DNA of 64,000 nt from Ruminiclostridium herbifermentans (lineage in GTDB: Bacteria > Bacillota > Clostridia > Acetivibrionales > DSM-1351). Positions 23,945 to 51,689 of this stretch are shown here, one piece after another. A program made the translations under genes and the position numbers. Below the pieces are notes generated by a model. It was not told the origin of the DNA and did no database searches. It saw only the letters and a list, made by a program, of their open reading frames with translations. The stretch lies in assembly GCF_005473905.2 (NCBI RefSeq), contig NZ_CP061336.1:2286501-2350500 (forward strand). The letters run 5' to 3'. Each line of letters opens with the position of its first letter. Position 1 is the first letter of the stretch.

Positions 23945-23977
23945 CCTCGCAATTGATATGACTATTTGATTGCGAGG
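23945..23977. repeat. Hairpin at the left edge of the IS4-type relic
   Basis: CCTCGCAAT (23945-23953) pairs perfectly with ATTGCGAGG (23969-23977), just before the transposase ATG. It may protect the element from read-through or mark its left end. Confidence 0.55.
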
Positions 23978-23985
23978 TACATATA

Positions 23986-27735: not shown

Positions 27736-27781
27736 TTATATTTAAAATTAACTAATTTGATATATTGAGTTCATTATTAAT

Positions 27782-27831
27782 AAAGATATAGTTAATAATT
27801 AATCTAAGATTATTAGTTATATCTTTTTATT
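27782..27831 (+). terminator. Intrinsic terminator between the two secreted-protein genes
   Basis: AAAGATATAGTTAATAAT (27782-27799) pairs with ATTATTAGTTATATCTTT (27809-27826) except for a 2-nt internal mismatch, followed by TTAT. Confidence 0.8.
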
Positions 27832-27856
27832 AGAAAAACATAAAGGAGAAAAGACT

Positions 27857-32757: not shown

Positions 32758-32784
32758 CTGGAAAACCAGAATTGCATAATTAAT

Positions 32785-33390: not shown

Positions 33391-33582
33391 ATATAATATA
33401 CAAAAGTAAAATATTAGCATAAAAAAACGTATAGTGGTGAAATCTTTGAATATGCGATTGGCAATTCTAGTAATTTTATGTCAAATATACACAAAAATAT
33501 TACTTGATTTTCCATAATTATTTTAATATACTAATACTAATAATATTTTTGGGTTTTATTTACATTACTTACTGGAGGATGG

Positions 33583-36500
33583 ATGTATATGGGACTAAGA
33601 ATAACTGAGAGCAGGCTTCCATCAGGTCTTTCACCACATGAATTAGGACAGGCCGTTTTGAGTGATTGTGGTAAGTATTCACTTATCAGTAATTTAACAT
33701 CACCTCTTCGTGTTGGCATAAATAATGGTGAAGCTATTGTAAATAAGGTTGAATATTATGTTTTTATAAATGAAACTAATATAGCCGAATTTTTCAATTA
33801 CAAATATCAATGGAATATAACTTTGGTTGATTCAGATGGCAAATCCAATATCTTTCTCAAGAATGAAGCACCTGTTGAGAATGGATTTGTATACATTGAT
33901 GTAAATAAAACTGGAAAATTGATTGTATCGGTTACAGTTCTTAATAATGATTCATGTATTGAACTAAGGCTAGAGCAGAATGTTATCGAACTAGATATAA
34001 CACTTGAAAATCTATATTCAAAAATTAAGAGTAATAAAGGCATAAATATTGGTGCATTAGCTGGAAACATTGAAACATCAAGAGAAATTATAAATGATTT
34101 TCATAACTATATAATTTTAGCTGCTCCTCCTCCTTCTTTAGCAAATTCTATTTCTTCATCATGGGCATTTCACTCAACTGACATTCCTGCAAAGTTTTTA
34201 ACTGCAATTGTATATGAGTTGATTTTTGCCTATCCTAATAATACAAAGGATTACAGAATTAATGCCTGTGAATCTGCAGCAAACTTTTTAAATCAAGACA
34301 ATTTCGATGAGTTTCTTTTAAACTATACATATATGATACCATTAGGTGTCTGCGGAATTACACCACAATATGCCGCAAATATACTTAATGTTTATCCTGA
34401 TTTATCAAATAAGGATGATAATGGACGAATACAGAGGATTGATTTGTTTAATATTCTTAGATTTCCAAAAACCAATATACAGGTTTGTTCAGCTATCTTG
34501 TCAAGTATTAAAAGTAAAAATGATAAATATAAAGACATTAAGCAGGAATTATTCTTAAAAAATAATGAAGCTTTGATATCTATATGTAGTGAATTTTTTA
34601 ACGGCTTACGCAATTCAATTTCAAATTATGCTCCTATAAATGAAAATCAGGTAAAAGTCGATGCTTTAGCAAAAAAAACAGTTGATATTCTTTCATATCC
34701 GTTTATTTCAATTCAAAATTACGAGCCTATTTATGGTTTTGAGACATATAAGATCATGGTGTTGGATTGCCGTTCTGGTAAACCTGTTAAAAATGCTCCT
34801 GTTAAGAGAATAAAAATAGGAAATATAGATAGTATCTTTGATATACCATTTGATGATACATTCGAAAAGGAAACTAATGGTAGTAAAAGTATCATTGTCA
34901 ACTTGATTAATTCTCAAAGGGCTTTAAATAACTTGAAGGAAGAGTATGAGGATAATGGTACAAAAAAACTTAGAAGTAAATACGACTGTGGTACACCTAG
35001 CAGCAACTATGGGAAAAAGGGCAGGACAGCCTATAATAAATATTGGACAGAAAGAGGCTGTTCGTTTATGTGCCTCAATACCGAAAATGGAGGAAATCCG
35101 CTAGATAGTGCTGTTAAGCTTATAATGGAAGAATATTTGTCACATAGGGAAACTGATATATATGGATATTTGAATGTAAAAATTCCTAGAATATTACTGC
35201 TGACACAGGAGAAAATCACAATAGAAGTAGGTTTTTATGATTTTCCAGTTGTATTGGAGAAACAGAAAATGGATCCCAGGACTAATCCTATTATGCGTAG
35301 CAGCAATGTATTTAAAGAAACTGGCTTCAAAGTAACTTGGGATGAAAACCAGAGTACAGAATGGGGAAAGAGCATTGGCTGGAAGGTTAGTGAGAAATCT
35401 AACAGTTCATTGTTTAAGATATCCGAAAAAATAGAGGTAAGTATGTTAATAGGAGAAGATGGCAAAGACAGTTTTAAAGAAGAATACACAAACATATATT
35501 TTGATGCCAAAAAGGAAAGAGATGCCATAGAGCAAAAAGATACTAATAAGACTCAAGAGGAAGAAAACAATCCCCACGCGGTTTTATTCGCTATGCAGTG
35601 GTGTCAGCCAGTATGGGATAAATTGAGTGATGCAGCTAATGACAGAATAAATGATATAGCCTTTACTGCAAAAAAAGATGGTAAGGGCAATTGGATTAAG
35701 GACTTGAATATGCACATTGTTTCAAAATATTCGGCAGGTGATGCAAATCCCTTCGGACATTATTACGGTTTTTTTGATATGACACCGCCCACACATAGGA
35801 AAACAAATAATAATCCCAACAGAGTGCATCAAGGAATAGATTTGTTTTCCGGTTCAAGCGGAAGCATAGATTGCTTTGCCTCCCACGGAGGCAGGATAGA
35901 AAATAATACTTCAAGCTCTTACGGACATAATATTTTACTTCGCCTTACAGAAAAAGCGGGGCCTTATTTTAGATATGCACACCTTGATTCTACTAGTGGA
36001 ACTTACACAACTAAAGAACGTGTTTTATGCGGAGAAATTATTGCAAAGACAGGCAGAACAGGCAATATACTTCCATATAACGATCTTCCATCCCATTTAC
36101 ACTTTGAGTTAAGAAACGACTCCGGCAATGAAATTGAACCTAATGCAATAACAACAATTAGCGGCGATATAGGAGATTTAGTCAATGCCTCTATAATGCC
36201 AAGTAATAAATTGCCTCTGATTTTTCCCTGTAAATGCAAATATGGTAATGACAATCAACCAGTGTCAAGCTGTAGATTTTCGGACGCAGAAGTTTTAAAA
36301 ACCTGCTGGGCTGTTCAGGAATTTCCTTATGATCAAGCTACAGTTGAATATTCAAGTAATGGAAATACTGATCATCAAAGTGAAGCTTTTATAGATAGTA
36401 GCAATATAATACGTTTTGCATGTCCTTATATTTTCAAAAAAGATGGTGACAAAAAAGCACAATTACAGGCTCAGTTAAAATTTGTCTATCACAATCAGGG

Positions 36501-36801
36501 TAAACAACCGAATATTGCTATTCCTACAAGCAGTTACTTTCAGGACCTAAATTCAGGCACCAATGCTGCACCGTTCGGAGGTATTAACGGAAATATCACT
36601 ACAAATGCAGCTGACAAAACAAGAATGGCTATACAGGGCTTAATAATGGCATATATGGAGTCGCAAAATATCCCTAACCCACAAGCTGATAATAATGATG
36701 TAAATCAATTTATAGAATTGTACTTAAATGGAACTCAAGCGTCAAATGAAAATGTTAAAAATGCATGTACATGGTTAAATAATATGGTTCCTATTATATA
36801 G
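33583..36801 (+). CDS. Giant cluster protein 1: 1072 aa with M23 (LytM) peptidase domain
   Basis: The N-terminal two thirds have no recognised domain. An M23 metallopeptidase domain lies at about residues 720-860: HQGID with His749 and Asp753, then HLHFE with His838, the usual zinc and catalytic residues. Such domains cut peptidoglycan cross-links. The segment around residues 440-500 has a Cys cluster (YDCGTPSSN, RGCSFMC). No signal peptide is visible, which is unusual for an M23 enzyme. ATG 33583 and ATG 33589 both follow GGAGG. First of five co-directional giant genes. Confidence 0.7.
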   Translation: MYMGLRITESRLPSGLSPHELGQAVLSDCGKYSLISNLTSPLRVGINNGEAIVNKVEYYVFINETNIAEFFNYKYQWNITLVDSDGKSNIFLKNEAPVENGFVYIDVNKTGKLIVSVTVLNNDSCIELRLEQNVIELDITLENLYSKIKSNKGINIGALAGNIETSREIINDFHNYIILAAPPPSLANSISSSWAFHSTDIPAKFLTAIVYELIFAYPNNTKDYRINACESAANFLNQDNFDEFLLNYTYMIPLGVCGITPQYAANILNVYPDLSNKDDNGRIQRIDLFNILRFPKTNIQVCSAILSSIKSKNDKYKDIKQELFLKNNEALISICSEFFNGLRNSISNYAPINENQVKVDALAKKTVDILSYPFISIQNYEPIYGFETYKIMVLDCRSGKPVKNAPVKRIKIGNIDSIFDIPFDDTFEKETNGSKSIIVNLINSQRALNNLKEEYEDNGTKKLRSKYDCGTPSSNYGKKGRTAYNKYWTERGCSFMCLNTENGGNPLDSAVKLIMEEYLSHRETDIYGYLNVKIPRILLLTQEKITIEVGFYDFPVVLEKQKMDPRTNPIMRSSNVFKETGFKVTWDENQSTEWGKSIGWKVSEKSNSSLFKISEKIEVSMLIGEDGKDSFKEEYTNIYFDAKKERDAIEQKDTNKTQEEENNPHAVLFAMQWCQPVWDKLSDAANDRINDIAFTAKKDGKGNWIKDLNMHIVSKYSAGDANPFGHYYGFFDMTPPTHRKTNNNPNRVHQGIDLFSGSSGSIDCFASHGGRIENNTSSSYGHNILLRLTEKAGPYFRYAHLDSTSGTYTTKERVLCGEIIAKTGRTGNILPYNDLPSHLHFELRNDSGNEIEPNAITTISGDIGDLVNASIMPSNKLPLIFPCKCKYGNDNQPVSSCRFSDAEVLKTCWAVQEFPYDQATVEYSSNGNTDHQSEAFIDSSNIIRFACPYIFKKDGDKKAQLQAQLKFVYHNQGKQPNIAIPTSSYFQDLNSGTNAAPFGGINGNITTNAADKTRMAIQGLIMAYMESQNIPNPQADNNDVNQFIELYLNGTQASNENVKNACTWLNNMVPII

Positions 36802-37020
36802 GGAGGTTTATATTTATACTACTCAATTTGATATTAAAACATAGAAAAATATTTTTTAATTGCAATAATAACCTTTTGCACATAAGTCTAAAGGTACTAG
36901 ACAAGTATCAATTGATAGTTGATAAAACAAATGTCTAAATACAGTTTTAGCTTATGTGATTCACAAGGTACTATTAAAAGGTATACTGGTTAGTCTATAA
37001 AACGAAGTGGGGTGTAAAAA
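36802..37020. repeat. Foldback in the leader of giant gene 2
   Basis: CACATAAG (36879-36886), followed after one base by CTAAA, pairs with TTTAG-CTTATGTG (36946-36958), and ACCTTTT / AAAAGGT extend the pairing on the outside (36871 and 36975). It may be an mRNA structure ahead of the DUF6603-like gene. GGGGTG precedes the GTG start. Confidence 0.5.
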
Positions 37021-40000
37021 GTGCAGGATAAAACACAATCTGTTTTTGAAAAAGCAATTCTTGAGATGCATAAAGTGTTGTTGCCCCTTTTGCATATTGA
37101 TTCAAAGTATAGTGCAAATAAACTGATTAACAAGCTGGGATATGTTTTTGATGAGGCTGAGGAAATTGGCTCAAGCTTTTCATCTATAGCCTCAAATGTT
37201 GAAAAGCTTCCTCAAGCTGCAACCGAAGCTATACAAGCAAGCAGTACTGCAGATAAAATAGTTAAAATTGCTTTTCTGGCTGAAAAAGTTACTGAAATTG
37301 TAAAAAATATTCTTAGCTTAAAAGAATCAATTTTAAGAGTTTATTCAAATGCTGTAAAAAACACAGAAACACTGCTTAATATTGCAGAGGAGTTACCAAG
37401 GCGTTTGCTGGATTACTTGTTGTGTACATATTTATCCTCAAATCACACCAAGCTTTACTCAATTTTAAATCTTGTTGGAATTACAACCACTGTTGAAGAA
37501 AATTATATATCGCTTACAGGAGAAAAAACTTCTGAAAAAGTTAAGATAAGCAGAGTTTCATGGCAATATGTTTCTATGGTTTTTTCTGATCCTGCAGCAA
37601 TTATTAGACAGGAATATAATTGGAAGCAGGGAGAAAATATATACTTCCAGTTATTATTTGAAAGAGTTTTACAAATTATGAGAGCTTATTTACTGCCTGG
37701 TGGAATATATACTCAGGATAAGCAAATAACAGCCAGTTTGACAGGGATGCAAACAGATGAATTGGTAAAGGAATTAAGAATTCCTTTGCTTCAGGCAGGT
37801 AATTGGCCAGATACATACAGTGAAGCAGGCATAAGTATATCACCAATAGTAAAGAACAGTATATCTGATGGGATGGCTATTTTGCCTTATATATTTGGTG
37901 AAGTACAGGCAAAGTCGGATATTAGTGACAGTCTCCAATTGGAGCTTAATGCAAATGGAGGATTGGATAACGGCTTAGGGATAATATTAAGGCCTGCTTG
38001 TAATATTGAATTCATATCAGATTTATTTAAAAATCCTCTTGAATCAGTAGATTTTAATTTAAAGTTGAAAATAAGCCAGAAGGAAACTACCAGTAATGAA
38101 ATAGTGCTTTTAGGTTATGCAGATTCAAGCAAATTAAGTATAAATAAATTAGGAATTATTCTCTTTGGAGAAAACAAAGACAATGTACAGGACTTTGGTA
38201 TTGAATTTGAAATAGGAGAAATATTGCTTGTTATAAAGACTGGAGATGGTGATGGCTTTATTCAAAAGCTGTTGCCTAATATTACAATAGAACAGGGATT
38301 TAGTATAAAGCTTGGATTTTCAATCAATAAAGGATTTTATATAAAATCAGGGACTGGTTCAGGAGGAGGACTGGAGTATTCAATATACTTAAATAAAGAA
38401 ATAGGTCCTCTACTTTTGGATATCTTGAAATTTAAGTTAAAATTTAATAATGACAAAATCAATTTGATTGCTTCTATTTCAGGTGGGGCAAGCATGGGGC
38501 CATTAAGTATCAGTATAACTGATATTGGAATACAGACTTGGCTTAAACTTGGCAAATCAGGTCTATTAGGAGGAGCAGATATTGGATTCGGTTTTAAACC
38601 ACCTGATGGCTTTGGTCTTGCCGTTAAAACATCCCTTGTCAGTGGCGGAGGTTTTCTGCAAATTGATGTGGATAAGGGAAGGTATTTTGGAGCATTGCAG
38701 CTCAAAGTAAAGAATATTTCTTTGGCAGCCATCGGCCTTCTGGATACGAAAGATTCTGAAGGAAAGCCTCTTGGTGGTGGCTTCAGTCTGCTCATAATAA
38801 TATGTGCCGAAATTCCTCCAATTCAGTTAGGGTATGGTTTTTCACTTATGGGAATTGGAGGATTGCTGGGGTTAAATAGGACTGTAGATATTGATGAGCT
38901 AAGAGATGGAGTCAGGAATAAAGCCCTTGATAATATAATGTTTCCTGCTGATCCTGTGGGAAATGCTAACCAATTAGTACAATCACTCAGTAAAATATTC
39001 CCCCCAAAAGAAGATTGCTTTCTGATTGCACCTATGGTTCGAATAGGCTGGGGAGTTCCAACACCTATTTTAAAATTAGATTTAAGTATACTTGTAGAAT
39101 TACCTTCATTTGATAAAATAGCCATACTTGGAAGGATGAAGCTTGCTTTGCCAAGTGAGACGGATGCTGTTATTTCAATACAGCTTGACTCTGTGGGAAT
39201 AGTGTCATTTGAAAAAGGGATGGTTTCTATTGACGCTGTTTTATATGATTCATACATAGCAAAAATAATGATTTCAGGTGAGATGGCACTTAGGGCAAAC
39301 TGGAAGGGCAATCCTGACTTTGTGTTATCTATAGGTGGCTTTCACCCTGCGTTTACTCCTCCCATTGGTTTCCCTGATTTAAAAAGGCTTACCTTATCAA
39401 TTGACTTCTGTAAAGACGCACGGCTCAGAATGGAATCTTACTTTGCATTAACCACAAATTCTATTCAATTTGGTTCTCATGTTGATTTTTATGCTAAAGT
39501 AGGGTGCTTTAGCGCAGAAGGTATGCTTGCTTTTGACACACTCATTTATTTTAATCCCTTTGGTCTTTCTGTTGATTTTAAAAGCTCTGTATCAATAAAG
39601 TGCTCTGGCAAAAGTATATGTGCAGTAACTCTGGCTGCTCATCTTAGTGGACCTAGGCCTTGGCATATAAAAGGACAAGCAAAATTCTCATTGTTGTGTG
39701 TATCCCATACCTTTAATGTGGATTTTACAATTGGTTCAGCAAGACCAGCTGAGCTGCCAAAGCCAGTAAATGTTGAAGAAATACTTGAAAGAGAAATTGT
39801 TTACATACAGAATTGGTCAGCTCAACCACCTGATGGTTTGTCCATTATTTCCTTAAAGGAAGCAGCTGATTCAAAAGAAGGAGAAATTCGCGTTCATCCG
39901 CTTGGTGGTTTAAAGTTTGTACAAACTCGGGTACCTTTGGATTTTGAACTAGAGCTTTTCGGAAGTTCGTCTGTTGAGGGAAATAACCTATTTAATATAT

Positions 40001-40530
40001 CTAGTATAACTGTTGGGAATAGTAGTACTTCATACAGCTTTAGGAAAATACAAAGTGCTTTTGCACCCGCACAATTTATGGTTATGTCTGAATCAGAAAA
40101 ATTGACTTCACCAGCTTTTGAAAACTATGATAGCGGTGTTGAAATTGATTTTGACTGTGTGGATTATGACGAACAATTTGATATTACTGATTTTGAATAT
40201 GAGACTATATTTGCAGATAATAAGGATGCTGAGCCTGCAAAAAAAGTGCATATGTCATCAGAGGAAATAACAGCTGCAGCACCTTCAGGTCCTGCTGGTT
40301 TAGCTAACTTGAAAAACAAGGAGCTTAAGTATTTCAAGGAACCTGAATTATTAATAAAGACTAAAAGATATAGCTATTCCGTTATTGAAGCTTATGATAA
40401 CAAGAAAGAATCTGAAACCAACAACTTACAAATTACTAGTAGCCAAATTACTAACAGCTTTTCAAAAGCGACACAAATAAAAAGAGCTTCTGTAAAGAAG
40501 GCTCATATACTCACTGTTATGGAGGGATAA
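37021..40530 (+). CDS. Giant cluster protein 2: DUF6603-like, 1169 aa
   Basis: A long central region (about residues 230-950) is built of Gly-rich beta strands with repeated GxGxxGGLEYSI, LGGADIGFGFKPPDGFGLAV, GGGFLQIDVDKGRYFGAL and GYGFSLMGIGGLLGLNR stretches, a pattern I associate with DUF6603 proteins. The N-terminus (1-140) is helical and the C-terminus polar. No signal peptide. It may form a large beta-structured shell or barrel-like assembly; this is inference. Start is GTG with GGGGTG upstream. It ends 2 bp before the next gene. Confidence 0.65.
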   Translation: MQDKTQSVFEKAILEMHKVLLPLLHIDSKYSANKLINKLGYVFDEAEEIGSSFSSIASNVEKLPQAATEAIQASSTADKIVKIAFLAEKVTEIVKNILSLKESILRVYSNAVKNTETLLNIAEELPRRLLDYLLCTYLSSNHTKLYSILNLVGITTTVEENYISLTGEKTSEKVKISRVSWQYVSMVFSDPAAIIRQEYNWKQGENIYFQLLFERVLQIMRAYLLPGGIYTQDKQITASLTGMQTDELVKELRIPLLQAGNWPDTYSEAGISISPIVKNSISDGMAILPYIFGEVQAKSDISDSLQLELNANGGLDNGLGIILRPACNIEFISDLFKNPLESVDFNLKLKISQKETTSNEIVLLGYADSSKLSINKLGIILFGENKDNVQDFGIEFEIGEILLVIKTGDGDGFIQKLLPNITIEQGFSIKLGFSINKGFYIKSGTGSGGGLEYSIYLNKEIGPLLLDILKFKLKFNNDKINLIASISGGASMGPLSISITDIGIQTWLKLGKSGLLGGADIGFGFKPPDGFGLAVKTSLVSGGGFLQIDVDKGRYFGALQLKVKNISLAAIGLLDTKDSEGKPLGGGFSLLIIICAEIPPIQLGYGFSLMGIGGLLGLNRTVDIDELRDGVRNKALDNIMFPADPVGNANQLVQSLSKIFPPKEDCFLIAPMVRIGWGVPTPILKLDLSILVELPSFDKIAILGRMKLALPSETDAVISIQLDSVGIVSFEKGMVSIDAVLYDSYIAKIMISGEMALRANWKGNPDFVLSIGGFHPAFTPPIGFPDLKRLTLSIDFCKDARLRMESYFALTTNSIQFGSHVDFYAKVGCFSAEGMLAFDTLIYFNPFGLSVDFKSSVSIKCSGKSICAVTLAAHLSGPRPWHIKGQAKFSLLCVSHTFNVDFTIGSARPAELPKPVNVEEILEREIVYIQNWSAQPPDGLSIISLKEAADSKEGEIRVHPLGGLKFVQTRVPLDFELELFGSSSVEGNNLFNISSITVGNSSTSYSFRKIQSAFAPAQFMVMSESEKLTSPAFENYDSGVEIDFDCVDYDEQFDITDFEYETIFADNKDAEPAKKVHMSSEEITAAAPSGPAGLANLKNKELKYFKEPELLIKTKRYSYSVIEAYDNKKESETNNLQITSSQITNSFSKATQIKRASVKKAHILTVMEG

Positions 40531-40532
40531 AT

Positions 40533-43500
40533 ATGGGGCTTGCATTTTTGAGCTGGGTTCGTACAGGGCTTGGCGGTGAATTAAATAAAAACGAAACAAA
40601 CAATAATATACTTGGGGGAAATGAATTTCCTCTTAATACAAGCTTACCAATTAATATTCAGCTTAATACAGGGAAAAGCAAATCAATTACGGCTTATATT
40701 CATGGTCCTGGCGATATTACTGGTTTTGATATTGAGCAAATAATCAGAAAAGAGCCATGTGAAAATGCAATTGAGGTATCTCCTAATTATATTCCGTCCA
40801 TAGATTTTGATTCTCCTGAGTTGCCGTGGTTGCTTTCAACAACTGGACCACAGAGAGGTGGCACAGAGAATGGGTTGAATAAAAGAGGGCTTTATCCTTG
40901 GTTATGTCTCATAACTATTGAAGAACCTGATAGATTTACTATATCTCCTCCTGGTTTTAAGAAACCGCTGTCCTCTGTTGTTCTTCCAGTAAATGAACTG
41001 CCTTTATTAGAATGGTCATGGCTTTGGGCTCATACTCAGGTTGTCATAAATAGTGCGGACGAGTCTATTGAAGATATAATAAAAAATAAGCCTGATAGAA
41101 ACCTGTCAAGACTTATTTCTCCAATTAGACTAAAACCCGAAAAGCTTTATCAAGCCTTTGTTGTACCAGTATTTGAAGCAGGACGCATTGCAGGTCTGGG
41201 AATGGAGCTTGAAAACAGTAATAAAACGAATTTTGCATGGGATAGTTCTAAAACAGAGGTTGAATTACCTATTTATACAAGCTGGAGATTTTCAACAGGT
41301 AAACATGGAGATTTTCAGTATCTAGCTGAGCTTCTTGAACCTTCTCACCAGTCTAATAATGGAATTTGTAAGCTTAGTATATTTGACGAAGCAGAAAATA
41401 TGAATGCAGCTGCCTCAGGAAGTTCTAAAGATAAATGGACTATAAATCTTGAAGGAGCGGTTGTAGACGCTAATTTAACAACTGGTACATGGAGCTTGAG
41501 TACAACAGATAAAAAAAGATTTACGGACAAGCTTGCAGATAGGCTTGAAAAAAAGCCTGGGGTGCTGCCTTTGCCTGCTTATGGCTCAGTAAATACTGAA
41601 TTTTCTGGTAATTTAAATCAAACAGGAGTACCCGCTTGGCTTAAGGAGCTTAATTTAGATCCTAGGTACCGCATTGCCGCTTCTCTCGGCACTCAGGTTA
41701 TAAAAGAAAATCAGGAAGAATTAATGGCATCAGCATGGGAACAGGCAGCGCAAATAAAAGAAGTGAATCAGTCATTGAGACAGGGACAGCTGGCACTAAA
41801 AACAAGTCATAATATTTACAAAAAGAGAATTGGGGAAAACGGCAGCAATGCCGCTCTTTCAAACAGCAGTCTTATCAGCCTGACTGCTTCAGCACATACG
41901 GCTATGCTGTATAAGAGTAAACCTGAAAGCACAATAGCAAAGGGTCTTAAGGAACTTTATACTAATATGACGCTAGAAGGAGTTATGTCACTTCAGTATC
42001 GCAAGCTTGCAAGACCAAGTGGAAAAATTTCTAAGAGAATTAAAAATAAAAAGTTAATAAAAAAAGTAAATCCTTTGGAATATACTTCAGAGAAGCTTGC
42101 TAAGGGTAATTTTGCTTTGATATTTGAAAAGAAGCCGATATTAGGAAGTATTAACATTGAAGAACTTTCTGGAAATGCTATTTCAATGGTGTCTTTTGTT
42201 CCTCAAATAGAAAATACAGTAGCTAAACAATTAAATATAGAAAATAATAAAGGAAAACAATTGAAAAATGAGTTTGTATCTGATGTAATTATAGGCTTTA
42301 AATCAGGAAGGATAATAAAAGGAACATGTGTAGCTATTGACGCAAAGCATCATCTAAACTTTAGCGCAAGCTTTAATATGAATGAAAACATGTACGGTTA
42401 TTTGTCAGGCACAAATTGGATACAATTTTTTGAACATGCCTATGCGGGGTCTAAAAATATCCTGTATGACAGCAGAGCAGTAACATATAAAAAAATAAAC
42501 GGAGAATACATAACAATAAATGCACTTTTCCGACTCAGTGTAACTTCAGATAGTTATAAAGAGTATTACATTCTAAATGGCTATTACACATGGAATAAAG
42601 GATATATATGTGAAACAGTTCCAATGAGCCACTATTATCCAAGTAATTCAAAAGATTGGTATGATATTGAGTATATGAGTTATATATTTGCTCAAGAAAA
42701 TTACTACTCTAATAACAGTTCTATATATGATATGAGTAGGCCCTGTGTGTCAGTTATGTATGTAAAAAACGAGTATAATATTATCTTTGTAGCTAAATCA
42801 CGTAATTGTAAAAAAATAGGAATAACAATAGGACTTAATGTTGATAATAAAGGAAAAGTGCGTAATGGATGGAAACATATACCTATTGGATATGATTGTG
42901 ATAAAGACATAAGCATGGATGCATATAACAACCATATATATATATTGACTGGAAAAAAGCTATTAATTGTTACGTTAGATGAAAACTGCAATGTTGTAAA
43001 GAAACGTGAATCATCTCAATGGATAATACCGGAAGGATATGTGTCAGGAGTAATAACTGCCTGCGACTTTAGGAAATCAACCAATCCAGATTTACTATTT
43101 GTTTATTCTATAAAAGACGGCGAGGCTAGTAAATGTTTCTATAGATTAGCTTATAATGTCGATGATGAAGGTAATGTGTTAGAATGGGGTAAGCCTGTTC
43201 CTGTATTAACAGAAGGAAAAGAAAATACAGGTACACCACTTTCGGTTATATTAGGTATATCAGATAAGGATAGTGCAGAAAAGCTTCAGCAGTTTACTAA
43301 ACAATTCTTAGATCAAGTAGAGGAAACACAAAATAGACTTAATAATATTTTTATGTATAATAAAAAAACTTCAATAGGAGCCTTAGATATTGATAACATT
43401 GCTGAAGAAATACGCAAGGAAATTAATCCACAAAAAGCCATTGTTCAAAAAATAGGTGAAACTCTTGAGCTGCCTGATTCAATATCGAGCAATGTGAACG

Positions 43501-44378
43501 AGAGATTGCAGCCAATTGCTGTAGTACCTAGATTTACTCAGCCTGTCAATGAGCTGCTTAGGAGTATGAATCCTGAGAATTTCTTAATAGGAGCTAAATC
43601 AATTCCCGATAATAGTGTTACAGTACTTAAACCCAATAAAAAGTTTATTGAAGCATTTTTAATAGGAATGAACAACGAAATGAGTAATGAGTTTCTTTGG
43701 AGAAACTATCCTGCTGATTTTTCAGCTACTTATTTTAATAGATTCTGGGATAACCGATCGGAAGACGGCAATATATTGCCTGATATAGCTCCTATTAACA
43801 AATGGAAGAAAACTAAAAAGCTAGGAGATAATCTTATAAATGACAATATAGGTCTATTTCTCACTATACGCGGTGAGCTATTAAGACGATTGCCAAATGT
43901 TATGCTTTATGCTCTTCCGGCAAAAGAATCAGGTGGCAAAAGAACTATTGACACTGAGAAAAAGAAAGAATTCCCTATTTTCAGCAGTAAAATTGATCCT
44001 GATATATATTTCTTTGCTTTTACCAAAACACCTGAAGAAGTATATGGCAATTCACAATATGATGGCTGGTATTTTATTTTTCAAGAGCATCCAACTGCTC
44101 CTCGTTTTGGCGCAAATGAAAGTAATCAAGATAATGAACCAGTGAATATAGATCAATTAACAAAATGGGAAGATTTAGAATGGTCAATGATTGACACAAA
44201 AAATAATTATATAGATTTCGGAGAAGATTCAAGTCTCAGCGGTAAGCAGCTGCCTGACACATTAGGAAAAAGTTCAACACACAGATGGGCATTCAGTTCA
44301 GCACATCTAGCACATATTTTATTACAGAGACCTGTTCAGGTGGCAATACATGCTACGAAATTGATGGAAAAACCGTAA
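40533..44378 (+). CDS. Giant cluster protein 3: 1281 aa, unknown function
   Basis: N-terminus FLSWVRTGLGG, then YIHGPGDITGFD, RGLYPWLCLITIEEPDRF and WSWLWAHTQV. The central part (about residues 560-910) looks like an inserted beta-rich/propeller-like region (repeating aromatic strands such as GVITACDFRKSTNPDLLFVY). The C-terminus has GWYFIFQEHPTAPRFG. I recall uncharacterised large bacterial proteins with this N- and C-terminal pattern, usually next to DUF6603-type proteins, but no known function. GGAGGG precedes the ATG, which lies 2 bp after the previous stop, so translation is coupled. Confidence 0.6.
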   Translation: MGLAFLSWVRTGLGGELNKNETNNNILGGNEFPLNTSLPINIQLNTGKSKSITAYIHGPGDITGFDIEQIIRKEPCENAIEVSPNYIPSIDFDSPELPWLLSTTGPQRGGTENGLNKRGLYPWLCLITIEEPDRFTISPPGFKKPLSSVVLPVNELPLLEWSWLWAHTQVVINSADESIEDIIKNKPDRNLSRLISPIRLKPEKLYQAFVVPVFEAGRIAGLGMELENSNKTNFAWDSSKTEVELPIYTSWRFSTGKHGDFQYLAELLEPSHQSNNGICKLSIFDEAENMNAAASGSSKDKWTINLEGAVVDANLTTGTWSLSTTDKKRFTDKLADRLEKKPGVLPLPAYGSVNTEFSGNLNQTGVPAWLKELNLDPRYRIAASLGTQVIKENQEELMASAWEQAAQIKEVNQSLRQGQLALKTSHNIYKKRIGENGSNAALSNSSLISLTASAHTAMLYKSKPESTIAKGLKELYTNMTLEGVMSLQYRKLARPSGKISKRIKNKKLIKKVNPLEYTSEKLAKGNFALIFEKKPILGSINIEELSGNAISMVSFVPQIENTVAKQLNIENNKGKQLKNEFVSDVIIGFKSGRIIKGTCVAIDAKHHLNFSASFNMNENMYGYLSGTNWIQFFEHAYAGSKNILYDSRAVTYKKINGEYITINALFRLSVTSDSYKEYYILNGYYTWNKGYICETVPMSHYYPSNSKDWYDIEYMSYIFAQENYYSNNSSIYDMSRPCVSVMYVKNEYNIIFVAKSRNCKKIGITIGLNVDNKGKVRNGWKHIPIGYDCDKDISMDAYNNHIYILTGKKLLIVTLDENCNVVKKRESSQWIIPEGYVSGVITACDFRKSTNPDLLFVYSIKDGEASKCFYRLAYNVDDEGNVLEWGKPVPVLTEGKENTGTPLSVILGISDKDSAEKLQQFTKQFLDQVEETQNRLNNIFMYNKKTSIGALDIDNIAEEIRKEINPQKAIVQKIGETLELPDSISSNVNERLQPIAVVPRFTQPVNELLRSMNPENFLIGAKSIPDNSVTVLKPNKKFIEAFLIGMNNEMSNEFLWRNYPADFSATYFNRFWDNRSEDGNILPDIAPINKWKKTKKLGDNLINDNIGLFLTIRGELLRRLPNVMLYALPAKESGGKRTIDTEKKKEFPIFSSKIDPDIYFFAFTKTPEEVYGNSQYDGWYFIFQEHPTAPRFGANESNQDNEPVNIDQLTKWEDLEWSMIDTKNNYIDFGEDSSLSGKQLPDTLGKSSTHRWAFSSAHLAHILLQRPVQVAIHATKLMEKP

Positions 44379-44500
44379 ACATAATTATTGTTAGAAACAA
44401 ACCATTGATAAACCATTTATAAGATTGAACAACGATAAGATAAAATATTCAAGTGGGAAATATGAATTATTTAGTTATATGAATTAGACGGAGGCTAAAA

Positions 44501-47500
44501 ATGAGTGAGATACTATTTTCGGGAATTTCTCCCATTACATTTTTTCCGATAAGACTTGAAACAAGGTTTTATCCCTATAAAAGAAAAGAAGGAACTAAAC
44601 CTGATGAATTACATATTCGCATTTATCCGGACATTATTCATATTGACAGCCATGAAAAAGAGCTAACAGAATTTGAAAAAGAAATGGGTAAGCAATTCTG
44701 GACCCAATTGTTGAATGCTGAAAATAATGTGAATATAAAAGATGACTTATGGAATCAGCTTGTTAGCACATTAGGAGCAGAGAGAGCATCATGGGTAGCA
44801 CGAATAATGAAACCTAATCTTAACAATGCTATTGAATTTCCAAATGTTGAATTAAAGGATAGTTCATGGACAAGGCCAGCGTTAGTAAGATTACTGCCTA
44901 CTAAATGGAGAGCAGTTGCTATACTTGGAAATCAGAAAATTACTGCGGTGGGTAAAAACATAATTACGCCTCTGCCTATCTCAATAGACCCGTTAAGTAC
45001 TAAAACAGAAATTGATTGGCTTATTGACTTTAATAAGGCACTTGATGCAGGTATGGCAATCAAGCTTCCGTTGTCTTCTGAAATGAAAACTAATGGGATT
45101 GACAGACTATTAGTTTATGGAATTAAAGAAAATCAAAATGGTGCAAGTGGAGCAGAGGAACTGAAAGAAGTACTAAATGCTCACTATTATACTGATGGCT
45201 TTGGATATATTGAACCGGGTACTCCTACCAATAATACTGAAAATACCTTTAGTGGCTATGACAAAAGTGATCCGCAATACATTTCAGGCTATTCAATTTT
45301 TGAACAGGATGATTTTAATTCTGATGAAAAATCTTCTGCTTCAAGAACTGCAAAATATATGGGTATAAGCTTATCACAAACAGGACAATTTGATGAAAAA
45401 GTTAACTCGTTTGTTTATGCTGCTAACAGACATTGCAGAGAGGAATTATTTTCTGAAGCTGTAAATGAAGGGCTATGGGCTTCTACTTGGGGTTACTTTT
45501 TATCACAAATGCTTGTTGAATCAGAGGGAGAATATGCAAGTAATACTTGCAGCTATTCGAAAATTGAAGAAAGAGCATATTTTAACTATTTAGAAAGAGA
45601 ACGATTGAAAAGAGAAGATTGGCTGAAGTCTGAACTTGAAGCTATTGCAGAAGTAGTGTATAATGAACAAATTTATAAATATATAGATAAGAAAACGTAT
45701 ACTAGAGAAGAGGCTCTTAAAAAAGCTGAAAATATTCAGAAAGGATATGAAAGTTGGGATACATTTTTGCAGCAGTGGGTTTATGCTAGAAAACAAGCCA
45801 ATCCTTATATTAACATAAATGTAGAAGCTTTAAGGAGAGAAATTATTCAGACCATAAATTTTAAGGCATACATAAAATGGAAAGAAAGAGGAAGTATTAT
45901 TGGAGATCGTGATTCAGACTGGATACGGGCAGAGAAGCAGCTTTATCTCGATAGGGTTTCCAAATATGCATATTTAAGATGGGAGTGGAGAAATTCTATA
46001 AAAATGGATGATTCTCCAGAAAATGATTGGTATGCTGGAGAACGTGCTCTTAGTTACTCGGCTGATTCAATTAAAGTAGGAAGAAAACACTTTACTAAAT
46101 ATGTTCGACCTGGAGGGCCTCTTCCTGCTATCAGAATTGCAAATCAGCCATATGGAGTATTACCTGTAATGTCATTAGATAATTGGAAGCCTAGTGAAAA
46201 TGAGAATAATCTAGAGAAATTAGTAAAGGCAATTAATGTACTAAAAAGCAAAGTATGGCTTCCCTCTGTGTCAAATGTTCCAAGAATAGGCTGTAATGAA
46301 AATGAAACTGAAAACAAGGAATTGTCTGATTTACTTACAATATTAATGACAAGTCCTTTAAGTCAAGAGTTTGATGCTTCAATGAGGCTTAGTTATGAAT
46401 TTGTTAAAAGTATTCTTCGTATAACTAATAAGGAAGTCAGCGGTAACTGGGAAATGACACTGAATGCTTCAAATAAAGTGATTTTAGATGCTTTAGGGAT
46501 TTCGTGGCTACCAAGAATAAATTCATTTGTAGGTACAAAGGATATTTTAACTGTATCGATACCATTAATTGGGGAAAAGGACAAAGAAATTCTTGATTGG
46601 TTTGTAGGCTCAAAAAATGTAACATTGTTAGAGGCACTTAAAAATGATGATGAACATATGCCTGATAACTTAAAAAATTCCAAGTCTCTTTTGTATTTAC
46701 TATTGCGTCACAGCTGCTTAAGAGAGCTTGTTGATGCTGCTATTAGTATTCTTAAAGATAATAACAAGCTAAAGGATTGGGAACATCTTGATGCAGACCT
46801 TATTAATATGAAGATTGAAGACAGTAGTGAACCATCACGCATTGTATGGGAACTTTTTAATAGAAGAATTACTATAGAAAATACGGTAATAAATACAAAT
46901 CGTCCTATAAGAGCAAATACAATAACTGTAGGTACATATATAGAAAAAAATTATAAAAATTGCAGTGAGGATTCACCTCTATATGGTTTGAGAAAGTTTA
47001 TGGAGGCAGTTGAAACCATAAAAGATGCTTCTTATCAACAGATAGATCGCCTCGTAAGACAAACCCTTGACTCTGCTTCTCACCGACTTGATGCATGGAT
47101 TACATCTTTTGCTACACGCCGCTTGTCGGAAATAAGAGACAGAGGAATAGAAGGAACACTGATTGGAGGCTTTGGATGGGTAGAGGATTTAAAAGCACAG
47201 GAAGGAGAACATTCTAATGCGCAAAGCAATACAAATATGAATAAAACACAAGATGGATTCATACATGCTCCTTCTATAAGGCAGGCTATAACAGCAGGAG
47301 TGTTAAGAAGTGCATATCTGGCGCATGCAAGCGATAATGGTAACTCTTGTGCAATAAATCTATCTTCTTCTAGAGTAAGAAAAGCAGAATGGCTTTTAGA
47401 CGGTATGAGACAGGGGCAAACACTTTCTAGTCTATTAGGATACTTATTCGAAAAGGAACTTCATAAAGGACAGGCAGATGAGTACATTGATGATTTTAGA

Positions 47501-49393
47501 GTGATCGCGCCGCTAGAAGCTGAGGTTATTGAAAGCAGTGATGATGCAAGTGGTGCAAACAGCTATGTATTATCAAAGCCTAATACTTTGGATGGATTGA
47601 AGCTTCATGAAATGTGGAAGGACAATTCAAGCAATCCTGCAATTATAGATTTACTCGATAATATAAAGCATAACTCTCTAGCAAAGTATAACCTTGTAGT
47701 TGCTGCGTTAGATGCTTTAGAAGATGCATTTGACTGTGTTTCTGATGCTCTTATTGCCGAAAGTGTTCATCACACGGTAAATGGTAATCCAGAGAGAGCA
47801 TCAGCTATATTAAATATGCTTTCTAAAGGGGAAGGCCCAATACCACAACTAGAGTTTACAAAAACACCAAGGACAGGTAAAAACATATCTCACAGGATTA
47901 TAGCATTGAAAGCTTGTGGCTTTGAGATATCAGGTTTGTGGAATACATCTGGAAGGCATAGAGCAGTACACTCTCAGGAACTAGAAGCACAGGTTCAAAA
48001 ATTGCTGCCATCACCTAAAAAAGTAAGATGCAAAGTAAAGATAAATAAAAATGGAAAAATAAATAAAGGTGAAGAGCTTATGATAGACACTGATATTTAT
48101 TTAAGTGAATGTGAACTTTGTGCTCTTGATTATGTTTATGAAGCTAGGACAGGAAGTGATGTAATTCCTTTAATTATCAAATTATCAATTATTGCTGCGG
48201 CATGTAAAAAGAACAATATACCTCTTGATTTTTCAGCTGAGGTAGAATACGCAGTAAATAAAAGTTTTTCGCCAGATGAGATCACAGTTCCAGAGTTTAT
48301 GAGAGTTTGCGCTTTAGTTAGGCAGGTTTTAGGAAAATCAAGGGCATTAACTCCCGATGATTTTGTATCACCAGAAGCAGGATATATAGAACAGGTGGAG
48401 GATATGAATTTGACTGCTTCTGCTCAGTCAGCAAATAACCTGTTAAGAAGATTACATGACAGAATATCTCAATACATTACTTCGGATGAGATTGTTTCAA
48501 CGGAAGAAGCCTATATGCTGTTTACTGAAGCTTCAGAATTAGGCATAAACGGAGCTGCTGAAGCTGCGGTTAAAAATACAAAGGAAAGTGCATATCCTGT
48601 AGAAGCCGAAATTAAAAAACGTATTAAAGAATTAGATAGTCTGATTAATAGTGAATCAGGTATATCCAACGGAGCAGCACAAGAAAATAATATTAGTGAT
48701 ATTAATAAATATAATATTGAAATTATAAGAACAGTATTCGGCGGAGAGTTTTTAGTAACACCGAGATTCAATATATTGAATGCTGATACCTTCAATGAAG
48801 CAGTTTATAATGGTCGAAAAATTGCAACCTCATCTGCTGTAAGAAGATGGTTTGGCAATATGTCTAGAGTTCACGGAGGTGCGGCAGTCTTTAATAGATA
48901 CCTTTTAGCAGGTTCTGCATTAAGAATTAATATAATGAATTCTTTTTCAGCTATACAATTACCCGTAATTCAAAATGAGAAATGGGTAGGTAATACATTA
49001 AATGAAAATGGAATAGATGGATCTCGCTTAAATCTTGTAATATTCGGAGAAAAATTACAAGAGGACTATAATTCTGTTTCAGGATTTGTTATAGATGAAT
49101 GGAATGAGACTATTCCAAACAAAGAGGAGACAACAGGAATTGCATTTCATTATGATAGCCCTGGTTCAGAGCCTCCTCAGACAATTTTAATAGCAGTTCA
49201 GCCTGATATTAATGATAAGAAATGGACTACCGATATGCTGGAAATGGTATTGCATGAAACACTTGAACTAGCGAAAATCCGTTCAGTAGGGAGAAATGAA
49301 TTAAATGATTTGGGGCAGATATTGCCAGCAATATACCTGACAAATAATTTAAATAAAGATACAGTATCAACAGAACTTTTCCCGATGGAATAA
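44501..49393 (+). CDS. Giant cluster protein 4: 1630 aa, unknown function
   Basis: Largest protein of the window. Starts with PITFFPIRLETRFYPYK and HIRIYPDIIHIDSHEKELT, contains RPGGPLPAIRIANQPYGVLP at about residue 540, and a helical second half with GGFGWVEDL, HAPSIRQAITAGVLRSAYLA and SSRVRKAEWLLDGMRQGQTL. No signal peptide, membrane segment or enzyme motif found. The pattern matches uncharacterised long proteins that I know only as hypothetical. GGAGG precedes the ATG. Probably a structural partner of the other giant proteins. Confidence 0.6.
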   Translation: MSEILFSGISPITFFPIRLETRFYPYKRKEGTKPDELHIRIYPDIIHIDSHEKELTEFEKEMGKQFWTQLLNAENNVNIKDDLWNQLVSTLGAERASWVARIMKPNLNNAIEFPNVELKDSSWTRPALVRLLPTKWRAVAILGNQKITAVGKNIITPLPISIDPLSTKTEIDWLIDFNKALDAGMAIKLPLSSEMKTNGIDRLLVYGIKENQNGASGAEELKEVLNAHYYTDGFGYIEPGTPTNNTENTFSGYDKSDPQYISGYSIFEQDDFNSDEKSSASRTAKYMGISLSQTGQFDEKVNSFVYAANRHCREELFSEAVNEGLWASTWGYFLSQMLVESEGEYASNTCSYSKIEERAYFNYLERERLKREDWLKSELEAIAEVVYNEQIYKYIDKKTYTREEALKKAENIQKGYESWDTFLQQWVYARKQANPYININVEALRREIIQTINFKAYIKWKERGSIIGDRDSDWIRAEKQLYLDRVSKYAYLRWEWRNSIKMDDSPENDWYAGERALSYSADSIKVGRKHFTKYVRPGGPLPAIRIANQPYGVLPVMSLDNWKPSENENNLEKLVKAINVLKSKVWLPSVSNVPRIGCNENETENKELSDLLTILMTSPLSQEFDASMRLSYEFVKSILRITNKEVSGNWEMTLNASNKVILDALGISWLPRINSFVGTKDILTVSIPLIGEKDKEILDWFVGSKNVTLLEALKNDDEHMPDNLKNSKSLLYLLLRHSCLRELVDAAISILKDNNKLKDWEHLDADLINMKIEDSSEPSRIVWELFNRRITIENTVINTNRPIRANTITVGTYIEKNYKNCSEDSPLYGLRKFMEAVETIKDASYQQIDRLVRQTLDSASHRLDAWITSFATRRLSEIRDRGIEGTLIGGFGWVEDLKAQEGEHSNAQSNTNMNKTQDGFIHAPSIRQAITAGVLRSAYLAHASDNGNSCAINLSSSRVRKAEWLLDGMRQGQTLSSLLGYLFEKELHKGQADEYIDDFRVIAPLEAEVIESSDDASGANSYVLSKPNTLDGLKLHEMWKDNSSNPAIIDLLDNIKHNSLAKYNLVVAALDALEDAFDCVSDALIAESVHHTVNGNPERASAILNMLSKGEGPIPQLEFTKTPRTGKNISHRIIALKACGFEISGLWNTSGRHRAVHSQELEAQVQKLLPSPKKVRCKVKINKNGKINKGEELMIDTDIYLSECELCALDYVYEARTGSDVIPLIIKLSIIAAACKKNNIPLDFSAEVEYAVNKSFSPDEITVPEFMRVCALVRQVLGKSRALTPDDFVSPEAGYIEQVEDMNLTASAQSANNLLRRLHDRISQYITSDEIVSTEEAYMLFTEASELGINGAAEAAVKNTKESAYPVEAEIKKRIKELDSLINSESGISNGAAQENNISDINKYNIEIIRTVFGGEFLVTPRFNILNADTFNEAVYNGRKIATSSAVRRWFGNMSRVHGGAAVFNRYLLAGSALRINIMNSFSAIQLPVIQNEKWVGNTLNENGIDGSRLNLVIFGEKLQEDYNSVSGFVIDEWNETIPNKEETTGIAFHYDSPGSEPPQTILIAVQPDINDKKWTTDMLEMVLHETLELAKIRSVGRNELNDLGQILPAIYLTNNLNKDTVSTELFPME

Positions 49394-49415
49394 ATGGCAA
49401 GAAAGGATGATAATA

Positions 49416-51176
49416 ATGCCAAACCCTTCAATTACAACATGGACAAGGCTTGAGCCAAACCCATTAAGCGATAATATGACCCCCTCTTTGGAGGCTTGTG
49501 TATATGATCCAGCTTGGATGATTGCAAGACAATGGCAGATTGGTGAATTTCACGGAGAAGATGCCGGAACTCCTATTGATGTATCTATTGAGGTAAATGC
49601 AGCTCCTTTAGTTACGTTTCAGACAAAAAATGGAAACTATATAGAAATCAAAGGAGTTCCTTTGGAGAATTTGGCTGGAGCGGAGCAAAAGGGTGAATTA
49701 TTGCCCTTTGAAGTAGCTGAAGCAGGAATGGAGTTTCTTAATATATGTTATGAAAATAATATAAGCAATAAGGTTATTGAAAATATTGTTAATGAGTTTC
49801 CTCTGAAAAGAAATGAAAATGATATCATTGATAGTACTGGAGAATATTTGCTTGATTTGCTTGAAGGATGTTCAGATAGGATGCTTGGTTTGCCTAATGT
49901 ATTTTCATTAGATAAGTCCGGTTATAAAACACTTGAAGAAATGCTGCGAAATACACAACGAAATAAAACTCCAGATTCAAAATTAAATATACCATCAAAT
50001 GAAGCAGATGCTTTTGTGAAGGTTGCTTGTGAATGGATAGAATGGTTTGATTCATTTATGTATTATTCATCAGATCAAGAGGATTCATGGGATAATGAGA
50101 GAATGGAATACAGCTTTAAAGCTGAAGCTAGAGATATAAAGGGAACATCTATAATATTTAAGGCTGACGAATGGAACGGCAGTCAACTTGATTGGTACAG
50201 CATGGATATTGATGATTCCAATACAGAATATAAAAAGCTTCAGATTAACATGCCAAAGCTTATTGGAATGGATGATAGCTATAAAAAAAGTCATCAAGGA
50301 TTACCTACCATGCTTACATATCAAGGTATGCCATGTTCTCGTTGGTGGGAGTTCGAGGATGCACAGGTGAATTTTGCACAAATTGATTGTGAGAAAAATG
50401 ATATTGCCAGAATGTTAGTTGTAGAGTTTGCATGTGCATATGGAAACGATTGGTATTTGATTCCTATGGAACTTCCTATTGGTGCTATTTATACAATCAA
50501 AAATTTCAAAGTTAAAAATACTTTTGGAGAAGAACAGGAAATTTTCCCTGTAAGTGGTTCTTCAAGTGGTGATTTAAATGATTGGTGTCTTTTCAACCAA
50601 AGCTATTCAAATAATAAAAAAACATATCAGGGGTTGTTACTATACCCAAGAGCAAATATTGATAAGAGTGAAGCAATAGAGCAGGTGGAATTCTTCAGAG
50701 ATGAAATGGCAAATATGGCATGGGCTGTAGAAAAACATGTTGAAAGTTCTGATGGGCGTAAGTTTGACAGAAATAGAAACTATACTTCAAATAAGAGCAA
50801 AGCCGTTACTGATAAAGACAAGCACAATAGCAATTCATATACAGAAAAACTGCTTGAATATAAATTAGTTAGTGAAATACCGCAGCACTTTTTCCCATTG
50901 GTTCCTAAGGCACCTATTACACCTGCATCAAAGCCAGAACACATTTATCAAATGCTCTTGATGTCTTCAGATTTAAAGCCTTTTGGAGAAATTTTGAATT
51001 CTTCTGATGACATTAATATTTCGCAGGAAGAAATACCAGCAGAAGGCATTGAAGTTACAAGAAATTATATGGTGACACGGTGTGATGACGGTAAAACTCT
51101 TTTATGCAGAATTAAGCAAAAGAAGACAGGCAGAGGTGAAGGCTCAAGCGGATTAGAATATGATAAGGCTGAATAA
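49416..51176 (+). CDS. Giant cluster protein 5: 586 aa, unknown function
   Basis: N-terminus TTWTRLEPNPLSDNM, then the striking EACVYDPAWMIARQWQIGEF followed by HGEDAGTPID, a block I associate with hypothetical proteins beside large LETRF-type proteins. The middle has RWWEFEDAQVNF and the C-terminus IPQHFFPLVPKAPITPA. No signal peptide or known enzyme motif. AAAGGATG favours ATG 49416 over ATG 49407, which overlaps the ribosome site. Ends in a terminator that includes the stop codon, closing the five-gene operon. Confidence 0.6.
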   Translation: MPNPSITTWTRLEPNPLSDNMTPSLEACVYDPAWMIARQWQIGEFHGEDAGTPIDVSIEVNAAPLVTFQTKNGNYIEIKGVPLENLAGAEQKGELLPFEVAEAGMEFLNICYENNISNKVIENIVNEFPLKRNENDIIDSTGEYLLDLLEGCSDRMLGLPNVFSLDKSGYKTLEEMLRNTQRNKTPDSKLNIPSNEADAFVKVACEWIEWFDSFMYYSSDQEDSWDNERMEYSFKAEARDIKGTSIIFKADEWNGSQLDWYSMDIDDSNTEYKKLQINMPKLIGMDDSYKKSHQGLPTMLTYQGMPCSRWWEFEDAQVNFAQIDCEKNDIARMLVVEFACAYGNDWYLIPMELPIGAIYTIKNFKVKNTFGEEQEIFPVSGSSSGDLNDWCLFNQSYSNNKKTYQGLLLYPRANIDKSEAIEQVEFFRDEMANMAWAVEKHVESSDGRKFDRNRNYTSNKSKAVTDKDKHNSNSYTEKLLEYKLVSEIPQHFFPLVPKAPITPASKPEHIYQMLLMSSDLKPFGEILNSSDDINISQEEIPAEGIEVTRNYMVTRCDDGKTLLCRIKQKKTGRGEGSSGLEYDKAE

Positions 51177-51200
51177 TCAGCCTTTTCTTTATTTTTGTTA
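51165..51200 (+). terminator. Terminator closing the giant gene operon
   Basis: AAGGCTGA (51165-51172) pairs perfectly with TCAGCCTT (51177-51184) across ATAA and is followed by a T-rich run. The TAA stop of protein 5 lies in the loop. Confidence 0.85.
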
Positions 51201-51654
51201 TCAGCACAGTATTGTAAACAATTAAAAAAAATGATATAGTATTCAAGTAATTATAGAGTCTAATATAAAAATTAGTTGAATTACAACTAAATAAGACAGT
51301 TCGCGAAGTCCTGTCTATAAACAAAACTAATTTTAATAGTATTGTCGGAATTTAATGGGGCAGTTTATTTATTCTATTTTAAAATGTTGTTTATAGTAGA
51401 GCCGAGGGGTTCTTTTTTTTTGAGTGAGAACTACTTGTAAGCTTGAGTTAAAAAAATTGCTGTTGGTGATTTAAGATGCCTGAAACAGCCATAAGTCTAA
51501 TCTACAAATATTATTTAATAGATAAATGTTCAGTACATTTTAGTGTTGTTTTTGATAAAATAAAAATGCAGACTATATTGAAGACTTTATTACAGTTTTT
51601 GAAGCAAAATAAAATAAATGGAGTCAGATTGAAGCCGAAGATACATAAAATTAT
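51201..51654. other. Intergenic region before the folate operon
   Basis: One small hairpin AGACAG / CTGTCT (51294-51316) and a run of nine T at about 51412. A 60-codon ORF at 51476-51658 has no ribosome site and is judged not real. No folate riboswitch motif was recognised. Confidence 0.5.
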
Positions 51655-51683: not shown

Positions 51684-51689
51684 ATACTA

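Follow-up and report, generated by a model that had tools for sequence, protein, structure and literature searches.

A conserved four-gene unit of giant proteins behind an exchangeable first gene: a possible undescribed molecular machine with other cells as its targets

What might an operon of five very large and almost unannotated genes do in a clostridial genome? The question is raised by a 64,000-nt stretch of Ruminiclostridium herbifermentans DNA (NZ_CP061336.1, positions 2,286,501 to 2,350,500; hereafter the window, meaning the whole stretch), in which open reading frame (ORF) calling places five ORFs on the plus strand, P1 to P5, spanning 33583-51176. A sequence-only reading of this DNA had proposed that the five proteins act together as a large assembly, perhaps a secreted or released particle or a wall-associated machine that uses the M23 (LytM) peptidase domain of P1 to pass the cell wall. 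Our comparison of the operon across genomes points to a molecular machine, so far undescribed, with a possible role in attacking other cells; its constant part would be P2 to P5, and not P1.

P2–P5 form a fixed four-gene unit

A tblastn search with P4 against plasmids returned 13 records (Streptomyces, Rhizobium, haloarchaea, Gemmatirosa, Paraburkholderia and Nocardia), and the order DUF6603-P3-P4-P5, DUF6603 being the family of P2, is identical in all six annotated plasmid neighbourhoods that were opened. Split genes occur in the plasmid loci L003 (P3 and P4) and L006 (P4), and in L006 the P5 profile also fails to pick up the final gene. A scan of genome contigs with a P4 alignment gave 100 relatives, the best 80 of which represent 78 distinct loci; together with L001-L008 and the window, these make up 87 loci, which were searched in six frames with iterated profiles. 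P2, P3, P4 and P5 are found in this single order and on one strand in 75 of the 87. The 12 exceptions comprise 10 loci truncated at contig ends, L006 without a recognisable P5, and L038 with only P4 and a piece of P5. The 78 scan loci belong to ten phyla, i.e., Actinomycetota (33), Pseudomonadota (15), Bacteroidota (12), Acidobacteriota (7), Nitrospirota (4), Chloroflexota (2), Methanobacteriota (haloarchaea, 2), Myxococcota (1), Planctomycetota (1) and Bacillota (1).

Because the loci were fetched by P4, the presence of P4 itself is no independent evidence of the unit. In a draw of 118 Actinomycetes genomes that was not chosen by P4 and includes one known carrier (G196), P5 was found in 7 genomes and strong P3 matches in the very same 7, with weak P3 matches (E about 1e-5) in 3 further genomes; DUF6603 was found in 15, including 6 of the 7 P5 genomes. 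P5 is present in 4 of 145 genomes of a haloarchaeal class and in 4 of 198 Bacteroidota genomes, each draw containing its seed genome. Among 196 genomes from the window's class, DUF6603 is confined to the window's own. Taken together, P2–P5 is a fixed four-gene unit, far beyond chance: about 4,700 residues, nearly unannotated, whose order is constant over ten phyla and two domains, and which probably has a specific function requiring all four proteins jointly. The sequence-only reading had called for such a tabulation of neighbourhoods and had named two outcomes that would speak against it, families scattered without co-occurrence and a clear match to a described system; neither was found.

A second DUF6603 context was observed in Actinomycetes genomes that lack P5 (L089-L095), where the frames are diverged, measure ~1400-3600 aa and stand without recognisable P4 or P5. 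At some of these loci the next gene has a diverged P3 N-terminal region (probability 95%, E 4e-8 in L092), and the third gene of two of them shows no detectable P4 similarity.

In the window, the layout described earlier holds: five co-directional genes separated by gaps of 219, 2, 122 and 13 bp, each start preceded by a purine-rich, ribosome-site-like motif (ggagg for P1, ggggtg for P2, ggaggg for P3, ggagg for P4 and aaagga for P5, that of P2 being the weakest), and a terminator-like hairpin enclosing the last stop codon (Table 1). One adjustment concerns P5, which measures 589 aa from its first ATG and 586 aa from the ATG at 49416 previously taken as its start, with which the last gap becomes 22 bp. 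Across 32000-51900, terminator-like sites (12, against a shuffled mean of 9.0, sd (standard deviation) 2.6) are little above chance, and promoter-like sites (86, against a shuffled mean of 88.0) are at chance level. Pfam bears out an M23 domain in P1 (E 2.9e-9, 37.4 bits, cut-off 28.7) and DUF6603 (PF20248) in P2 (E 9.8e-134, 447.1 bits, curated cut-off 27), and gives zero families over cut-off for P3, P4 and P5; DUF2934 comes closest, in P4, with 21 bits against a cut-off of 22. Of P1–P5, NCBIfam matches the M23 region alone, with a SpoIIQ model that stays far under its cut-off; PHROGs places a peptidase family on the same region (E 9.4e-5) and yields no match below E 0.03 for P2–P5; and PADLOC models match P1–P5 with 0 families at E up to 1.

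Table 1. Features of the cassette and its surroundings (positions in the window)
Feature	Position	Strand	Description
27.5-kb block including the cassette	23746..51204	.	missing between topB and folE in G025
P1	33583..36801	+	1072 aa; variable-slot protein with uncharacterised N-terminal part, M23 peptidase domain and C-terminal tail
M23 (LytM) domain of P1	35824..36135	+	aa 748-851; HxxxD at aa 749, HxH at aa 838; from Pfam and motif positions
P2	37021..40530	+	1169 aa, GTG start; helical N-terminal part and DUF6603 (Pfam, predicted model)
DUF6603 region of P2	38389..40095	+	aa 457-1025; predicted long antiparallel beta meander, strands amphipathic on average
P3	40533..44378	+	1281 aa; conserved N-core aa 1-505, variable middle, conserved C-core aa 990-1281
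P3 variable middle	42048..43502	+	end of middle similar to FG-GAP-type repeats in other P3 proteins
P4	44501..49393	+	1630 aa; LETRF-type conserved giant protein; no Pfam family over cut-off
P4 insert	45551..46000	+	~aa 351-500; occupancy 0.02 in 41-row alignment, window row only
P5	49407..51176	+	589 aa; ARQWQ-type conserved protein; no convincing fold match
Terminator-like hairpin	51165..51184	+	8 pairs, P5 stop TAA inside loop, T-rich tail

In G025, the nearest relative examined (FolE 87% identical), an interval of 1.5 kb separates topB from folE and contains genes of queuosine type, as named by eye; in the window, the right edge of the block falls ~20 bp past the P5 terminator. No P1–P5 relative was found at E 1e-10 in the stretches before folE of six same-genus genomes (L099-L104), and DUF6603 was not found in three same-genus genomes, one of which shows the block-free site. 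On the P5 tree (46 rows), the phylum changes 16 times, the least possible being 8 and the shuffled mean 27.2 (17 changes with the window row), so the cassette seems to cross phyla, though not freely. The tree, the same-genus absence of DUF6603 and the block-free site fit horizontal spread. Elsewhere in the block, 25141-32200 encodes a dockerin/TSP3-repeat protein as well as a CBM2 protein of 1447 aa whose repeats are carboxypeptidase-regulatory-like; an HD-domain gene belongs to the block too.

Scans of viral contigs with P5 as a single protein and with a P4 alignment, both of limited sensitivity, gave no relative. By tblastn, one unverified, unannotated fecal scaffold among 50,697 phage records matches P4 and P5, and none matches P2. 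L008 (MT835531.1), a fecal scaffold deposited as unverified bacteriophage, holds the entire P2–P5 cassette by profile and may be bacterial DNA labelled as phage.

The exchangeable first-gene slot

P1 of the window is a predicted M23 peptidase, its over-cut-off profile match being accompanied by HxxxD and HxH, the zinc-ligand motifs of the family. By phmmer at E 1e-5, P1 has no homologue among the loci, and a PDB profile search gave no useful match for it or for a PhoD-type protein from the same position. We tallied 35 P1-position proteins, that is, 40 listed upstream genes minus six (L027, L055, L056, L060 and L061, with gaps >500 bp, and the incomplete L082) plus that of L001, taken from annotation. 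Pfam assigns PhoD to 15 of them, PLDc to 3, M64, M23 and PG_binding to 2 each, and S8, an Rv2525c-like GH domain and Het-C to 1 each. Single scans of ten such proteins identified PLD (L025), S8 (L032), M64 (L014), GH-like (L030), Het-C (L029) and M23 (L072) families and left L006 and L050 without one; the called P1 of L072 has an N-terminal part apparently out of frame, as judged by eye. The upstream genes of L052 (TonB, gap 266 bp) and L071 (histidine-kinase, gap 187 bp) were judged unrelated neighbours and are still counted in the 35.

Catalytic motifs of these families are present in most of the proteins checked. Two HxKxxxxD motifs are found in each of the 3 PLD proteins (3/3), HExGH in both M64-group proteins and GTSMA in the S8 protein. 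The full set of three PhoD-type motifs occurs in 15 of 17 PhoD-group members, L001 having 0 and the short L048 having 1. A supported clade of the P5 tree mixes P1 types, with L078 (PhoD group), L026 (PLD group) and L029 (Het-C) side by side.

How regularly the slot is filled was counted at 68 testable loci, which have at least 1 kb ahead of P2, a close upstream gene being co-directional, at least 250 aa long and separated from the called P2 start by -60 to +120 bp. Such a gene is present at 31 of the 68, overlapping P2 by 4 bases in 10 cases and by any amount in 14. The other 37, among which ORF calling may have missed some upstream genes of GC-rich loci, include the window with its 219-bp gap, and the hydrolase is therefore not universal. 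Because the slot elsewhere holds unrelated hydrolases and 37 of 68 loci have no close upstream gene, P1 is best read, on these sequence comparisons, as an exchangeable companion and not as a fixed wall-passing tool. The role once proposed for its M23 domain, passing the cell wall, is thus not upheld.

Predicted features of P2–P5

The predicted model of P2 (mean predicted local distance difference test score, pLDDT, 78.5; predicted template modelling score, pTM, 0.52) has a helical N-terminus, and its DUF6603 region is modelled as a long antiparallel beta meander. The 30 strands at aa 371-904 would be amphipathic on average, with a mean face difference of 2.88 against 1.15 (sd 0.15) in 500 shuffles, a control that ordinary beta-sheets would exceed too. 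The best Foldseek matches of the model are apoB100, an S-layer deinoxanthin-binding complex, an usher and LptD (best E 1.9e-4, template modelling (TM) scores 0.05-0.19 for the top five), and VIA aligns it to porins with Z about 13, a root mean square deviation (rmsd) of about 11 Å and 4-11% identity in the top rows. A closed porin barrel was not accepted because of this rmsd; we interpret the model as a generic up-and-down sheet, which could be shaped into a groove, belt or barrel.

P3 is built of two conserved cores flanking a variable middle. In an alignment of 46 rows, from which the longest P3 proteins were left out, mean pairwise identity over 400 sampled pairs is 35% and 38% in the cores and 16% in the middle, the length of which ranges from 64 to 545 aa. 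The end of the window's P3 middle resembles FG-GAP-type repeats (E 6.1e-7 for L016), and a PDB profile search with the middle gave nothing useful. Among 26 long P3/P5 proteins, Pfam finds FG-GAP_3 in 8, LTD, PA14 and F5/8C in 3 each, Kelch_6 in 2, and others, with a weak TcdB_toxin_midN match (E 0.0074) in 1 of the 26. Strongly hydrophobic, membrane-span-like segments lie in the P3 middle of L032 (aa 546, a planctomycete) and L040 (aa 590, Syntrophomonadaceae).

A set of 16 mostly long P4 proteins gave three weak Pfam matches only, one of them FG-GAP_3 (E 0.0024). The P4 alignment comprises 41 rows, the longest proteins again left out; the window row alone has an insert of ~150 aa, with a DUF2934 match (E 2.6e-4) just under cut-off. 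P5 is modelled with pLDDT 75.4 and pTM 0.76. A PDB profile search with P2–P5 gave weak matches only (best E 0.045, designed helical proteins), and P3, P4 and P5, when compared with one another for hidden homology, had in common no more than one weak stretch, between P4 and P5 (probability 25%, E 7.6e-4).

A simple hydropathy test found no signal-peptide-like or membrane-span-like segment in P1–P5 of the window, in agreement with what had been noted for proteins 2-5 from the sequence. Across the loci, the same test found an N-terminal hydrophobic segment in 1 of 35 P1-position proteins, 1 of 45 P2, 0 of 46 P3, 0 of 41 P4 and 0 of 46 P5. Stretches over the 19-residue threshold anywhere in the protein were found in 7 of 35, 21 of 45, 4 of 46, 4 of 41 and 1 of 46, respectively, and those in P2 may reflect its beta-sheet.

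Possible roles and comparison with known systems

The constancy of P2–P5, the hydrolases that replace one another in the first gene, the variable modules of binding type and the near absence of signal peptides lead us tentatively to infer a cytoplasm-assembled P2–P5 complex that binds a target and presents an interchangeable hydrolase against a target cell. P2–P5 would be the constant body of this multi-protein complex; it would be assembled in the cytoplasm, since its proteins are made without signal peptides, and be released by lysis or by some other route. P3 and P5 would bear outside-contacting parts with exchangeable lectin-like or propeller-like modules, and P2 would provide a very large, on average amphipathic beta-sheet, predicted as an open groove or barrel, for lipid contact or cargo holding. 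The exchangeable first gene would supply the effector, a hydrolase (here the M23 peptidase) damaging the walls, membranes or proteins of target cells. The large assembly of the sequence-only reading is a reasonable proposal, and the binding-type domains in P3/P5 relatives fit a released or exposed structure, the particle itself being a proposal.

Several observations weigh against this target-cell complex. Two of them tell most strongly against it. A hydrolase gene adjoins P2 at fewer than half of the testable loci, and the P1 groups show no docking domain: in hhalign comparisons of nine P1 groups, no pair exceeds 2.1% probability for a shared docking or N-terminal trafficking domain, a comparison of low power because several groups are single sequences. 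P1 type changes 10 times on the P5 tree against a shuffled mean of 9.8 (22 rows, 8 types) and so does not follow the tree, again at low power. The amphipathy of P2 is measured against shuffles, 8 of its 30 strands differ by <1.3, and its fold matches are generic beta-sheet only. The P5 model has no convincing match among PDB and viral folds (Foldseek best E 0.28, or 4.0e-3 at probability 0.06; VIA Z at most 3.4), which does not prove a new fold. Nor is there a conserved downstream gene: among 46 downstream proteins (44 of 115 listed and two from annotation), no family occurs in more than 2 among the 25 of 117 families listed, and clustering gives small clusters only, the biggest of 3. Finally, missing signal peptides are equally compatible with an ordinary cytoplasmic complex.

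This last point leads to the strongest rival, an intracellular complex for lipid or metabolite handling, stress or storage, in which the giant proteins scaffold a cytoplasmic hydrolase. In its favour, signal peptides are nearly nil, some P2 matches (apoB100, the S-layer deinoxanthin-binding complex, usher, LptD) handle lipid, and PhoD and PLD types could act on phospholipid; against it, M23, Rv2525c-like and PG-binding domains indicate peptidoglycan, and modules of the PA14, F5/8C and lamin-tail kinds are frequently extracellular. We consider it unlikely. Rather less probable is a machine on the producer's own surface or anchored in its wall, serving adhesion or substrate degradation, with the hydrolase remodelling the producer's wall. 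Such a machine would account for the M23 and PG-binding domains in some P1-position proteins, the ligand-binding modules in P3/P5 relatives and the dockerin and CBM2 genes within the same 27.5-kb block, but the window's P1–P5 have no Pfam anchor or S-layer domain and no signal peptides, the majority of Pfam-named P1-position enzymes are not wall enzymes, and haloarchaea, which are generally known to lack murein, carry the cassette. An anti-phage or genome-conflict system, suggested by the sporadic distribution, the plasmid or island location and the exchangeable effector-like enzymes, is very improbable given that P1–P5 have neither a PADLOC match nor any Pfam sensor, nuclease or nucleotide-binding domain.

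Hardly credible is a role of the cassette as accessory genes or cargo for an extracellular contractile injection system (eCIS). The sheath family PF04984 is matched in 15 of 28 cassette genomes (14 over cut-off), a sheath gene whose neighbours resemble those in another sheath cluster is present in the window's own genome, and one Anaerolineae contig bears both cassette and sheath cluster. Against this, 13 of the 28 have no match, 1.2 Mb separate cassette and sheath in the own genome, and PF04984 matches prophages too (3 of 14 control genomes). From this count, which has no baseline in cassette-free relatives, we draw no link between the cassette and eCIS. The own-genome cluster (G000:C1 ~3,556,000-3,580,000; L107, L115, L116) is eCIS-like: its sheath gene encodes 761 aa (E 2.6e-19), and the neighbours of 145 and 717 aa resemble sheath-adjacent genes on the Anaerolineae contig; from size and similarity to that other sheath cluster, we take them for putative tube and AAA genes. 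eCIS are patchy and common in some cassette genera, reaching 69% of sequenced Algoriphagus according to PMC8213781, a pattern that could explain the co-occurrence of cassette and sheath; the main text of that paper names neither DUF6603 nor PhoD.

The Pfam entry for DUF6603 assigns it no function, and a literature search made without preprints and mostly without subscription papers found no paper naming DUF6603 or PF20248 and no description of such a giant-protein operon. In its fullest form, the target-cell complex could represent a novel type of machine for delivery or killing between cells, of an origin other than phage tails and common to bacteria and archaea. Its body of four proteins would be constant, P3 and P5 would carry exchangeable modules for binding the target, and the first gene would encode a hydrolytic warhead, likewise exchangeable; this broader claim is doubtful at present. 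The exchangeable hydrolases and binding modules lead to testable predictions on target cells and lysis, and possibly to a new delivery platform.

Compared with known systems, the cassette shares with eCIS a multi-gene and sporadic occurrence in bacteria and archaea with variable cargo and binding modules, but a Pfam scan of 25 of the window's 43 ORFs of at least 100 aa found no sheath, tube, spike or baseplate family. With Tc (ABC) toxins it has in common a few giant proteins, propeller modules and no classical signal peptide, whereas P1–P5 contain no TcA, TcB or Rhs/TcC Pfam family, and the variable enzyme is a separate first gene in the cassette and a C-terminal cargo domain in Tc toxins. 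Although the P1 groups show no shared N-terminal trafficking domain in the low-power hhalign comparison, the cassette resembles polymorphic toxins (PMC3482391) in combining exchangeable toxin-like domains with a constant apparatus.

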